From positions 1 to 55,510 of the forward strand of contig CALULJ010000011.1 in the NCBI GenBank assembly GCA_944321445.1: a stretch of 55,510 nt of DNA. Direction: 5' to 3'. Shown in pieces: positions 2,345 through 53,847 of this stretch; the stretch's first letter is position 1, and each line of letters starts with the position of its first letter. The notes beneath the pieces were generated by a model that made no database searches, was not told where the DNA came from, and saw only the letters and a list, made by a program, of their open reading frames with translations. The translations under genes were made by a program, and so were the position numbers. This stretch comes from an uncultured Collinsella sp. GTDB lineage: Bacteria > Actinomycetota > Coriobacteriia > Coriobacteriales > Coriobacteriaceae.

Positions 2345-2373
2345 CTAGGCGCTAACTGGCCCGACTGGCCGGA

Positions 2374-2461
2374 CTGAGGTACCACACCTCGGGGTTCAAT
2401 CGTCGCTCGCCGCACGCAAGGCGTGCTCGCTCCTCTTTCACCCCGATTTGCGGCACCTCAG
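2374..2461. repeat. Nested inverted-repeat element downstream of pgi
   Basis: An 88-base stretch starts with CTGAGGT and ends with ACCTCAG. Inside are GGGGT/ACCCC arms and a central GCACGC-AAG-GCGTGC hairpin, so the whole block can fold as one long imperfect stem. No second copy was seen in this window. It could serve as a terminator structure for pgi or be a small palindromic mobile element. Confidence 0.4.
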
Positions 2462-2489
2462 CCGGCCGTCTCCGTTGTTGAGTACTATT

Positions 2490-21411: not shown

Positions 21412-21549
21412 TCGGCGTTCCCGTATGGGCTTGGGAGACAGAGGACAGGCTTTCCCATTTCGGGCATATGCTTTGCTTCGGTAAAGCGCTACACTAACGT
21501 CTGTCTGAAAATCCAACGTCCCTTGGGGCGATAGAAGAAGGTGTTCGCG

Positions 21550-22713
21550 ATGCAGTTTTCCCATAGGCTTGACAGGTTCGGCGACGAGGTGTTCGCTGCG
21601 CTCAACCAGCGCAGGCTCAAGCTCGAGGCGCAAGGCCGCACCATCTATAACCTGTCGGTGGGAACGCCCGATTTTGCGCCCTACGATCATGTGGTAGAGG
21701 CGCTGCGCGACGCCGCCGCGAATCCTGCGGAGTGGAAGTACAGCCTGGGTGATCTTCCCGAGCTCAAGCAGGCGGTGTGCGATTACTACGCCCGTCGCTT
21801 CGGTGTGGAGGGCATCACGCCCGACATGGTCGCCTCGTGCAACGGCACGCAGGAGGGCGTGGGGCACCTCGGTTTGGCGCTCCTTGATCCCGGCGATGTG
21901 GCCCTTGTTCCCGATCCGTGCTACCCGGTGTTCGAGGCGGGCGTCAAGATCGCCGACGGCGAGCTCGCGTATTATCCGCTCAACGCCGAGCATGACTTTT
22001 TGCCCTACGTCGACGGCATCGACCCCGAGGTTGCCGACCGCGCGAAGTACATGATTGTCTCTTTGCCGGCAAACCCCGTGGGCAGCGTGGGTACACCTGA
22101 GGTGTACGAGCAGATTATCGCCTTCGCGCGCGAGCATGATTTGCTCATCGTGCACGACAACGCATATTCGGACATCGTCTACGACGGGCCGCGCGGCGGC
22201 AGCTTCCTGCAGTATCCCGGCGCACTTGAAGTGGGCGTCGAGTTCTTCTCGCTTTCGAAGTCGTTCAACGTTACCGGCGCGCGCATCGGTTTCCTCGTCG
22301 GTCGCGCCGATGTGGTGCAGGCGTTTGCCAAGCTGCGCAGCCAAATCGACTTCGGCATGTTTTACCCCATTCAGAGGGCGGCCATCGCCGCCCTTACGGG
22401 ACCGCTCGAGAAGGTCGAGGAGCAGCGCTTGAAGTATCAGGAGCGCCGCGATGCCCTGTGCGACGGGCTCGAATCGATTGGATGGGAGCGGCCCAACGCC
22501 CACGGCTCCATGTTCGTGTGGGCGAAGCTTCCCGGTGGCCGCACGGATTCCATGGCGTTTTGCGAAGAGCTTATGGACCGCGCGGGCGTCATCGTGACTC
22601 CGGGCGCCAGCTTCGGTCCGCATGGTGAGGGTTACGTGCGCATGGCGCTCGTGCTTCTGCCCGACGGCATGCGCGCCGCTGTCGCGGCCATCAAGGATGC
22701 CGGCATCTGCTAA
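21550..22713 (+). CDS. PLP-dependent class I aminotransferase
   Basis: A 387-residue fold-type I aminotransferase. Visible features: NLSVGTPDFAP (34-44), substrate-side CNGTQEGVGHLGLALLDPGD (98-116), NPVGSV (175-180), HDNAYSDIVYDG (202-213) and the PLP lysine at 237 in SLSKSFNVTGARIGF. The sequence pattern is closest to the LL-diaminopimelate/aspartate-alanine aminotransferase group. It could supply the N-acetyl-aminoketopimelate transamination step missing from the dap operon at 32-36 kb, but it is 10 kb away and this is inference only. The ATG at 21550 is preferred over a GTG 9 bases earlier because AGAAGG is then at proper distance. It follows nadE by 138 bases. Confidence 0.88.
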   Translation: MQFSHRLDRFGDEVFAALNQRRLKLEAQGRTIYNLSVGTPDFAPYDHVVEALRDAAANPAEWKYSLGDLPELKQAVCDYYARRFGVEGITPDMVASCNGTQEGVGHLGLALLDPGDVALVPDPCYPVFEAGVKIADGELAYYPLNAEHDFLPYVDGIDPEVADRAKYMIVSLPANPVGSVGTPEVYEQIIAFAREHDLLIVHDNAYSDIVYDGPRGGSFLQYPGALEVGVEFFSLSKSFNVTGARIGFLVGRADVVQAFAKLRSQIDFGMFYPIQRAAIAALTGPLEKVEEQRLKYQERRDALCDGLESIGWERPNAHGSMFVWAKLPGGRTDSMAFCEELMDRAGVIVTPGASFGPHGEGYVRMALVLLPDGMRAAVAAIKDAGIC

Positions 22714-22737: not shown

Positions 22738-22768
22738 GACGCACTTCTCCCCAGGGGAGAAGTGCGTC
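22738..22768. repeat. GACGCACTTCTC palindrome, copy 2
   Basis: Perfect 15-base arms, GACGCACTTCTCCCC and its complement, are separated by a single A. It lies 25 bases after the aminotransferase stop and upstream of ldh. Copy 3 lies just after ldh, so this pair brackets that gene. Confidence 0.85.
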
Positions 22769-22917
22769 GTGCCTCCCAGTGCGGCGCATGTGAAGCACCC
22801 GTGAATATGTAAGCAAATAACTAGCAAATACGTGTGAATTGAAATCCTAGTGACACAGTGGGAATAAGCGATAGCAAAGGCGCCAGATGGCGCAGCACAT
22901 GACCGTAGGGAGTAATC

Positions 22918-23865
22918 ATGGTCAACAACAGGAAAGTCGCTATCGTCGGATGCGGGTTCGTTGGGTCTTCTTCCGCTTTCGCGTTAATGCAGAGCGGTTT
23001 GTTTTCCGAGATGGTTCTGATCGACGTCGACAGGGCCCGTGCGGAAGGCGAAGCGCTCGATATCAGCCATGGGTCGCCCTTCGCGGGGTCGATGAATATC
23101 TATGCGGGCGATTATGCGGATGCGGCGGATGCCGCGATCATCGTCGTCACTGCGGGGGCAGCCCAAAAGCCGGGGGAGACACGGCTTGATCTGGTCAACA
23201 AGAACGTTGCCATCTTCCGCTCCATCATTCCGAACATTCGTGAGGTGGGTTTCGAGGGAATCCTGCTCATCGTATCGAACCCGGTCGATGTCCTTACGTA
23301 TGCGGCCATCAAGATGTCCGGTTTGCCCGAAAGCCGCGTCATCGGGTCGGGTACCGTGCTCGACTCCGCTCGCCTGCAGGAGGCTCTCGGAACTCATCTG
23401 GGCGTTGACCCGCGCGATGTCGAGGCGTATGTGATCGGTGAGCACGGGGATTCCGAGCTTGCGGTATGGTCGAGCGCAGATGTGGCTGGCGTTCCCCTGA
23501 AGGACTTCTGCGAGATGCGGGGTCATTTCGATCATGAGGTTGCCGAAGCGCGCATCGCCGATGAAGTGAAAAACGCAGCGTACGAGATCATCAAGCGCAA
23601 GCATGCGACCTACTACGGCATTGCCATGTCGGTGCAGCGCCTGTGCACGGCAATCATGCGCGACGAGAAGTGCGTTCTTCCCGTATCGAGTCTCATGGTG
23701 GGGGAGTACGGGATCTCGGACATCGCGATCTCGCTGCCGACGATCATCGGTCGCAACGGCATCGAATGTCGCGTTCCCATTTCGCTTGATGCCGACGAGC
23801 TGGAGGAGCTGCATCGTTCCGCTTCCGCCCTTTCGAACGTCATAGACCAAAGCGGCTTGCGTTAG
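22918..23865 (+). CDS. ldh: L-lactate dehydrogenase
   Basis: NAD-dependent reduction of pyruvate to L-lactate, regenerating NAD+ in fermentation. The 315-residue protein has the Rossmann loop VGCGFVGSSSA (10-20), the specificity/active loop AGAAQKPGETR with Gln83 (Gln selects lactate, Arg would indicate malate), the substrate-binding NPVD (121-124), GSGTVLDSARL (143-153) and the catalytic His176 in GEHGDSE. An ATG follows GGGAG at 5 bases. It is flanked on both sides by copies of the same palindrome and appears to be a single-gene unit. The AT-rich stretch before it (22801-22860) probably holds the promoter; the repeated AGCAAATA there is suggestive but unassigned. Confidence 0.95.
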   Translation: MVNNRKVAIVGCGFVGSSSAFALMQSGLFSEMVLIDVDRARAEGEALDISHGSPFAGSMNIYAGDYADAADAAIIVVTAGAAQKPGETRLDLVNKNVAIFRSIIPNIREVGFEGILLIVSNPVDVLTYAAIKMSGLPESRVIGSGTVLDSARLQEALGTHLGVDPRDVEAYVIGEHGDSELAVWSSADVAGVPLKDFCEMRGHFDHEVAEARIADEVKNAAYEIIKRKHATYYGIAMSVQRLCTAIMRDEKCVLPVSSLMVGEYGISDIAISLPTIIGRNGIECRVPISLDADELEELHRSASALSNVIDQSGLR

Positions 23866-23871
23866 AGGTTT

Positions 23872-23949
23872 CGCCAAATGGGGGCGGGTCGTTTGACGCA
23901 CTTCTCCCCAGGGGAGAAGTGCGTCGATGGAGGCGGGTCCCATTTGGCG
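23872..23949. repeat. GACGCACTTCTC palindrome, copy 3, with extra outer arms
   Basis: The core at 23895-23925 is identical to copy 2 (15-base arms around one A). It sits inside a larger inverted repeat, CGCCAAATGGG (23872-23882) and CCCATTTGGCG (23939-23949). The whole block starts 7 bases after the ldh stop. Two nested tiers suggest an element with its own boundaries and not a simple terminator. Confidence 0.8.
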
Positions 23950-24063: not shown

Positions 24064-24081
24064 GCTAAGGAGTGGGTGCAC

Positions 24082-25848
24082 ATGTCGGCTCAAGCGGCAG
24101 ATTGGTGGAAGCAAGCTGTTGTCTATCAGGTCTATCCTCGGAGTTTCCGCGATGCGAACGGCGACGGCCTGGGCGATATCCGGGGTGTTGTTGACCGAAT
24201 CGATTATCTGAAGCGATTAGGTGTCGACGCCATTTGGCTTTCGCCGTTCTACCCTTCCGAGCTTGCCGACGGAGGCTATGACGTCATCGATTACCGCGAT
24301 GTCGACCCCCGTCTGGGTTCGCTCGACGATTTCGACGATATGGTCGCCGCCGCCCACGCGCGGGACATTAAGGTCATCGTCGACATCGTTCCCAACCACA
24401 CGTCGAACAAGCACCGGTTTTTCCAGGCAGCGCTCGCTGCCGGTCCCGGGTCGCCCGAGCGCGACCGCTACATCTTCCGCCCGGGGCGCGGCGAGCACGG
24501 TGAGCTGCCTCCCAATGGCTGGAAGTCCTGCTTCGGCGGGTCGGCTTGGGAGCGCGTCGAAGATGGCGAGTGGTACCTGCACCTGTTTGCCAAGGAGCAG
24601 CCGGACTTGAACTGGAAGCATCCTGATGTGCATGAGGAGTTCAAGCAGACGCTGCGCTTTTGGTCCGATCGCGGGGTCGACGGCTTCCGTATCGACGTGG
24701 CGCACGCTCTTGCCAAGGACCTCGACAGCCGCCCGCTTGATGAGCTCGATCAAGATCCCGACCAGGCAACGGGCAACGCCGACAACCCGCTGTGGGATCG
24801 CCCCGAGGTGCACGACATCTACCGCGAGTGGCGCCAGGTGTTCAACGAGTACGAGCCGCCGCGCTTCGCGGTGGGTGAGGCATGGGTGGTGCCTGAGCAT
24901 CAGCGCTACTACGCTTCGACCGAAGAGCTCGGTCAGGTGTTCAATTTCGAGTTCGCGAAGGCTGATTGGTTCGCGGGCGATTTCCGCCGCGCGATCGAGG
25001 AGGGCCTGTCGTGTGCAGAGCTCTCGGGTTCTACGAGCACGTGGGTGCTTTCGAACCATGACGTGCCGCGCCATGCGACGCGCTACGGTCTGCCGCAGGT
25101 GAAGGCGAACGTGCACCACCAGTTCGTGAACGATTGGCTGTTGCGCGATGGCAAGACCTACAAGGTCGACTATGCGCTCGGAACGAAGCGCGCCCGAGCT
25201 GCACTCCTCATGGAGATGGGTCTGCCGGGCTCGGTCTATATCTACCAGGGAGAAGAGCTCGGCTTGTTCGAGGTCGCCGACATCCCATGGGACCGCCTGG
25301 AGGATCCGCAGGCGGTTCGCACGGCCCATGGCGATGCGCTCAAAGGCCGTGACGGGTGCCGCGTTCCGCTGCCTTGGTGCGCGGGCGACTTGCCGAGCCC
25401 TGCTGCATGGGACAGCTCGTTCGGCGACGGGTCGACGGGTTCATTTGGGTTCTCGGCGGCTGTCGCGGGCGCTGAACCGCTTTCGTCGTCCCAGTCGCCG
25501 CATCTTCCGCAGCCGCAGTGGTTCGCGAATTTCGCAGCAGATGCGGAACAGGCCGACCCTGCCTCGATGCTCAACTTCTACCAGTGCGTGCTTGCGCTGC
25601 GCGCCGAGATGCTCACGGCGACAGGCGATATGTCCCTCACGTGGGTCGACCCCGCATTGCTGGGTGAAGACCCCTCGCAGGTCATCGCTTACGAGCGCCC
25701 GACGGCGGACGGTCGCGTTTTCACGAACGTCACGAACTTCGGCTTTGCCCCCGTCCCTGCGCCTGCCGGCGCGCTCGTGATCGCATCCGGCGAGCTTCTT
25801 GAGGACGGTTCGATTCCGCAGGATGTTTCCGCCTGGTACGTACGCTAA
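24082..25848 (+). CDS. Alpha-glucosidase, glycoside hydrolase family 13
   Basis: A 588-residue intracellular retaining alpha-glucosidase of the oligo-1,6-glucosidase/alpha-glucosidase type. Conserved regions: Ca site DANGDGLGD (24-32), region I DIVPNHTS (101-108), region II GFRIDVAH with nucleophile Asp205, region III VGEAW with acid/base Glu266, and region IV LSNHDVPR with Asp327. The sequence resembles the actinobacterial alpha-glucosidases of bifidobacteria. No signal peptide is present, so it acts on imported malto- or isomalto-oligosaccharides. ATG at 24082 is 9 bases after AAGGAG; a GTG 6 bases earlier is too close. It complements the phosphorylating route at 3-6 kb with a non-phosphorylated one. 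Confidence 0.93.
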   Translation: MSAQAADWWKQAVVYQVYPRSFRDANGDGLGDIRGVVDRIDYLKRLGVDAIWLSPFYPSELADGGYDVIDYRDVDPRLGSLDDFDDMVAAAHARDIKVIVDIVPNHTSNKHRFFQAALAAGPGSPERDRYIFRPGRGEHGELPPNGWKSCFGGSAWERVEDGEWYLHLFAKEQPDLNWKHPDVHEEFKQTLRFWSDRGVDGFRIDVAHALAKDLDSRPLDELDQDPDQATGNADNPLWDRPEVHDIYREWRQVFNEYEPPRFAVGEAWVVPEHQRYYASTEELGQVFNFEFAKADWFAGDFRRAIEEGLSCAELSGSTSTWVLSNHDVPRHATRYGLPQVKANVHHQFVNDWLLRDGKTYKVDYALGTKRARAALLMEMGLPGSVYIYQGEELGLFEVADIPWDRLEDPQAVRTAHGDALKGRDGCRVPLPWCAGDLPSPAAWDSSFGDGSTGSFGFSAAVAGAEPLSSSQSPHLPQPQWFANFAADAEQADPASMLNFYQCVLALRAEMLTATGDMSLTWVDPALLGEDPSQVIAYERPTADGRVFTNVTNFGFAPVPAPAGALVIASGELLEDGSIPQDVSAWYVR

Positions 25849-28408: not shown

Positions 28409-28416
28409 CGCGGCTT

Positions 28417-28480
28417 GGGAAAATGGGGACAGGCACTTATTTCCCACCGGTGGGAAATAAGTGCCTGTCCCCATTTTCCC
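28417..28480. repeat. GGGGACRGG palindrome family, copy 3 (perfect 64-bp palindrome)
   Basis: Two 32-base arms are exact reverse complements with no loop. The left arm begins GGGAAAATGGGGACAGG and ends TTTCCCACC. It shares the GGGGACAGG core with the elements at 12649, 19196 and 53782 but differs in the inner part. It begins 8 bases after the preceding stop codon. Confidence 0.85.
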
Positions 28481-28489
28481 GAATGAAAG

Positions 28490-36042: not shown

Positions 36043-36071
36043 CGTGCCTCCCAGATAGCTCTCCTGCAAGT

Positions 36072-36216
36072 TTCGTGCAGACAGTCCCGCAAGTGTTCCC
36101 TGCGGTCCCACCCGGTTCCGTCGTGCCCGGCGGCCGAGTTCGGCGGGGTTGCCTCCACGCAAGGTCTTCGCCTGCCGGCTCGCTCGCGCATCTTCGTGCC
36201 CGCATCCTCTATCGAA
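36072..36216 (-). promoter_or_regulatory. Lysine riboswitch (L-box) upstream of lysA
   Basis: Read on the minus strand, the region begins GATAGAGGATGCGGGC (36213 downward), the conserved start of the L-box. It continues through GCCGGCAGGCGAAG, ACCCCGCCGAAC and CCGGGTGGGACC, and ends TTGCGGGACTGTCTGC (to 36077). GATAG can pair with CTGTC to close P1. A CTATC stands between the aptamer and the GGGAGG ribosome binding site (36053-36057) and could compete for GATAG, as in the B. subtilis lysC leader. No terminator with U-run lies before lysA, so control of translation initiation is more likely. Confidence 0.85.
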
Positions 36217-36436
36217 TGGGGAAACCCTATCACGAACGGGCTTTACCAAACAAGAGTGGCTCCTGTGACGATACATATTGGTAACGCTTTCACGGTGAAG
36301 CAGGAATTGAGGCGGACGTGCCGGAGCCTTCGGTAGGGTGGCCAGGGGGGGGTAACTGTCAGGGCATTGGGCATCGACGGGCAGTGAGTGGTGCAGGGCG
36401 GCTATACTTGTGGCGGTCGAGGGAAAGGATAGCCAG

Positions 36437-53758: not shown

Positions 53759-53781
53759 CGGCACCCGATTGCCATATGGCG

Positions 53782-53840
53782 TCATTGGGGACGGGGGTGA
53801 GAGAGGACAAACTGTCCTCTCTCACCCCCGTCCCCAATGA
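53782..53840. repeat. GGGGACRGG palindrome family, copy 4
   Basis: Perfect 28-base arms separated by AAC. The left arm (53782-53809) starts TCATTGGGGACGGGGGTGAG and ends GAGGACA. It shares GGGGACGGGGGTG with copy 2, and GAGAGGACA with the inner stem of copy 1 at 12674. It lies 23 bases after the stop codon of the glycosyltransferase operon. Confidence 0.85.
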
Positions 53841-53847
53841 GGGCAAT

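Follow-up and report, generated by a model that had tools for sequence, protein, structure and literature searches.

The REPs and REPINs linked to RAYT genes are short palindromic repeats whose movement is attributed to a Y1 (HUH) transposase. Published REP (repetitive extragenic palindrome) families, including those tagged with GTAG or CGTC, are species-restricted extragenic palindromes of 20–40 bases in tens of copies or more. They mostly lie less than 20 bp from the 3' ends of ORFs, where the flanking genes converge or run in the same direction, and at times they are nested within other palindromes; the CGTC REPs have no dedicated transposase (PMC3733652). In E. coli, REPs no more than 15 nt from a stop codon are reported to be associated with the control of translation (PMC12306157). 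The 31-base palindromes of Collinsella described here resemble the GTAG- and CGTC-tagged REPs in size, copy number, extragenic position, species restriction, crowding behind genes and occasional nesting, and the CGTC REPs also in having no transposase. Unlike either tagged group, however, they carry no unpaired tag and do not form dimers of tagged units, and their stem is a perfect 15 bp around a one-base centre, whereas CGTC REPs have stems of 8–9 bp with loops of 4–5 bases. Our preferred reading, which we give a probability of roughly 0.7, is that they constitute an untagged REP-like family, recently expanded in a Collinsella lineage.

The analysed stretch of DNA, here called the window, is 55,510 nt long and contains the palindrome GACGCACTTCTCCCC-A-GGGGAGAAGTGCGTC, having 15-base arms and a one-base centre, in two copies that match the consensus without mismatch (22738-22768 and 23895-23925, neither assigned to a strand). 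One copy starts 24 nt past the stop codon of an aminotransferase class I/II gene (21541-22713, plus strand, PF00155 with E 1.7e-57; stop ending at 22713), and the other 29 nt past the stop codon of ldh, a lactate/malate dehydrogenase gene that itself lies outside the element (22918-23865, plus strand, PF00056 and PF02866; stop ending at 23865) and is followed by an alpha-amylase family (GH13-type) gene (24076-25848, plus strand, PF00128 with E 5e-100). A third copy at 2490-2520, again without strand, has T at its centre and one arm mismatch, and follows a separate inverted-repeat element of about 110 bases. The copy behind ldh is in addition nested in a second, larger palindrome, recognized from sequence and fold, with the 11-base outer arms CGCCAAATGGG (23872-23882, plus strand) and CCCATTTGGCG (23939-23949, plus strand). 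A preliminary description of this DNA had reported the identical pair with ldh alone between them, the diverged third copy and the extra outer arms, all of which we could confirm; its distances of 25 and 30 bases correctly placed the copies after the two stops, but were one too high when counted as intervening bases. When the arm was searched at up to three mismatches, nine matches were obtained in the window against 2.2 expected, a number reached in none of 100 shuffles. As RNA, the segment 22725-22785 was predicted to fold at -34.7 kcal/mol (z -6.0), and the segment 23870-23960, which includes the outer arms, at -57 kcal/mol compared to -32.5 for shuffled sequences (z -7.6). Among the sequences scanned with Rfam, none gave a match at a palindrome.

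Within the genome of the window (G000; 2.36 Mb in 84 contigs), 38 copies were found at up to three arm mismatches, which excludes chance. Both arms were identical to the consensus in 20 of them and the mean was 0.7 mismatches, with one variant, G for A at arm position 6, being present in both arms of three copies and in one arm of several others. None of 42 congeneric (Collinsella) genomes had the palindrome at the same threshold, and scans of 84,980 species genomes, of viral contigs and of plasmids, from which the genome of the window may be missing, gave no hit to the exact form. The description of the palindromes as a dispersed family, not as independent terminators, was thus borne out by 38 near-identical copies in one genome and none among its congeners. 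A single related palindrome of 30 bases, GACGCACTTTTCCTCCGGGGAAAGTGCGTC, was seen in C. tanakaei An368 (G064), between two genes that we take to be nrdD and nrdG; the corresponding gap in the window's genome holds a different repeat, GGGAAAATGGGGACAGTCCCTATTTTCCC. The possibility of a DNA-uptake-type signal was rejected: the 9-base AAGTGCGTC occurred 66 times in 177 kb of the genome's own sequence, about the number given by the paired copies alone, leaving none of the single-copy scatter expected of an uptake signal.

A wider search for GACGCACTT...AAGTGCGTC mainly returned, besides scattered single hairpins, a Chloroflexota family of different build. This multi-copy palindrome, AGGTGCGACGCACTT-N4-AAGTGCGTCGCACCT, occurs in Anaerolineae and Ardenticatenaceae (L098-L199); it has the GACGCACTT arms in common with the Collinsella family, but differs in having longer outer arms (AGGTGC) and a variable centre. 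It turned up because the search pattern demanded GACGCACTT, and it is probably unrelated.

The repeat is exactly 31 bases long, with identity between copies ending at the edges of the palindrome. The first outside base was a pyrimidine in 60 of 74 cases, a skew that pairing does not account for; as a candidate 16th pair the edge bases were complementary in 15 of 37 copies, close to the expectation from base composition, and that candidate was discarded. A and T were equally frequent at the centre, corresponding to both orientations. Direct repeats at the copy edges were in no excess over chance, the single case of 5 bases being found at one copy (C27, CTCTC), and with no target-site duplication the family does not qualify as a classical insertion sequence or MITE. 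In an empty-site comparison with species about 75–90% identical, the copies were absent at the homologous places examined, although divergence of the gaps was too great for a clean empty site to be defined.

Two features that define known REP groups were also looked for. The CGTC at the edge was base-paired with GACG in nearly all copies and neither GTAG nor CGTC was found unpaired, which places the family outside the GTAG and CGTC super-families. The genome does encode two Y1 (IS200-like, RAYT-type) transposases, a point in common with RAYT-linked systems, but unlike in such systems their genes are flanked by other repeats: the gene at L031:1301-2240 (G000:C5) by its own palindromic family (GGGAAAATRGGGAC...), which is also present in several other species, and the gene at L032:1030-2320 (G000:C2) likewise by its own (GTCCTCTCTGGGGAC... 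/ GTCCTCTCTGGGGACGGGGG...). In this draft of 84 contigs the 31-base palindrome was not found at the flanks of either gene, so that the family does not count there as a RAYT-associated REP, and the Y1 transposases, which 37 of 43 Collinsella genomes encode, were dismissed as the obvious partner. Since both the tag and the flanked transposase gene were lacking, and the two Y1 genes had other repeats beside them, we term this an untagged, orphan REP-like family. The missing unpaired tag, the missing palindrome-flanked Y1 gene and the missing target-site duplication all count against a REP-like reading.

The placement of the copies relative to genes was pronounced. They are extragenic, with one place falling within a very weak ORF call, and 11 of 39 places were within 3 nt of a stop codon compared to 0.85 expected (P 5e-10), while 19 of 39 were within 15 nt compared to about 3.3 expected (P 5e-11). 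None of the 39 was within 15 nt of a start, where about three were expected, and only two lay in divergent gaps, which make up 17% of intergenic positions; nine copies were more than 100 nt from any stop. These figures derive from a home-made dicodon caller trained on the genome's own sequence, with all intergenic positions of the same stretches (around the copies, plus the window) as control under the same gene calls and uniform placement, and the P values are approximate given this caller and the limited control, with the effect being large. A palindrome of 31 bp in 38 extragenic copies, close to gene 3' ends, rare in divergent gaps and confined to one or a few species, qualifies as a REP in the broad sense.

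Such a position, together with very stable hairpins, could also be explained by a terminator of transcription, or a hairpin at mRNA 3' ends, that is specific to the lineage, has been copied from one gene to another and is maintained by selection for this role; in many relatives the gap between the aminotransferase gene and ldh does contain an ordinary hairpin, of unrelated sequence. Like Rho-independent terminators, the palindromes are GC-rich hairpins just past a gene; unlike them, they have no consistent U-tract and keep an identical sequence at 38 places; termination does not require near-identical sequence. At least five T within 10 nt of the stem's end, read in either direction, were found at only 5 of 38 copies and no terminator was called at the two ldh copies, so that the family lacks the stem followed by a U-tract of an intrinsic terminator. 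The preliminary description had held that confinement to gene ends with U-tracts would identify a common terminator; the copies do crowd gene ends, but T-runs accompany few of them. With absence from all congeners and the copies far from any stop also speaking against it, we regard a terminator or 3'-end function as the origin of the family as unlikely. If the copies were instead fixed binding sites of a regulatory protein, or of one that organises the chromosome, this would agree with the perfect symmetry, the odd centre base, the sharp edges and the 38 copies. Site systems of that kind are normally common to a whole genus, whereas this palindrome is in none of the 42 congeneric genomes, and a binding site would not predict crowding at stop codons, making this a very doubtful explanation.

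The preliminary description had further suggested that the two identical copies around ldh alone are the ends of an ldh cassette, or recombination arms by which ldh could be deleted or inverted, and ldh is indeed missing at the same place in C. tanakaei An368. The cassette was rejected on synteny. The aminotransferase gene and ldh were adjacent in 32 of 41 other genomes (hand-counted from the match list, with two more broken by contig ends and one having 2.7 kb between the genes), and the palindrome was in none of them; in those relatives that were read base by base, the sequence of the gap was unrelated and often comprised a different hairpin or repeat. In An368 the aminotransferase gene is directly followed by the amylase gene, and as the palindrome is also absent there, loss of ldh is possible without it. 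Moreover, 36 other copies have no connection with ldh. If about 38 copies lie at the ends of some 2,100 genes, an estimate for a genome of such size, about 0.7–1 genes should be bracketed by consecutive copies through chance, and two were seen, the second being a gene between C8:54349 and C8:55606 that is unrelated in place. We take the pair around ldh to be coincidental, with ldh not carried as a mobile cassette, and find a role of the two copies as cassette ends or recombination arms exceedingly improbable.

Returning to the REP-like reading, near-identity of the copies together with their species restriction suggests spread by copying, and we propose that they would have spread as a small non-autonomous element by way of a hairpin-recognising enzyme. 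Copies landing just past stop codons may survive, or be preferred, because genes are not damaged there, it being a coincidence that both ldh and the gene upstream of it are followed by one. Position and predicted fold point to a possible effect on RNA: transcribed copies would form very stable hairpins that could mark or protect mRNA 3' ends, and where a stop codon is no more than about 15 nt away they may slow down the ribosomes that terminate there, as is the case with E. coli REPs. A more specific version, in which a perfectly symmetric, untagged REP-like family is moved by a non-RAYT enzyme that targets stop codons or their vicinity, is prompted by the 11 places no more than 3 nt from a stop, the pyrimidine preference just outside the edges and the lack of target-site duplication; we consider it improbable. 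The REP-like reading would add a clean, young, species-specific family in Actinomycetota (Coriobacteriia) with no transposase alongside. Because 20 of the 38 copies are still identical, it should be a good case for studying what moves REPs without a RAYT, and whether targeting or selection lies behind the crowding at stop codons; the family would also serve as a marker for strain typing.

Several other repeats and elements were met in the course of this work. The inverted-repeat element of about 110 bases, at window positions 2360-2480, also occurs in L088, L087, L093, L097, L205 and L210; it ends in GGCCGTCTCCGTTGTTG and has the conserved inner sequence GCCGCACGCAAGGCGTG, with some of its several copies adjoining the palindrome. 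In the sequences run against Rfam, which did not include L210, it had no match; it could be an RNA element. The motif AAAAATCCGYCCAAAGTCCCGACTTTTTGCA, with similar upstream sequence, was found at five places (window 53968 and 1645 (minus); L208; L091) and is possibly a structured RNA or terminator family. Very long near-perfect palindromes at 28415-28482 and 53780-53842, with arms of 34 and 30 bases, are made up of sequences from the repeat families GGGAAAATGGGGACAG and GGGGACGGGGGTG. In a relative's contig, CTGTCTCTTATACACATCTAGATGTGTATAAGAGACAG (L227:1370-1409; G016:C12) consists of back-to-back Nextera mosaic ends and is an assembly artefact. Finally, a lysine riboswitch (RF00168, 61 bits) is located at 36048-36219 on the minus strand of the window.
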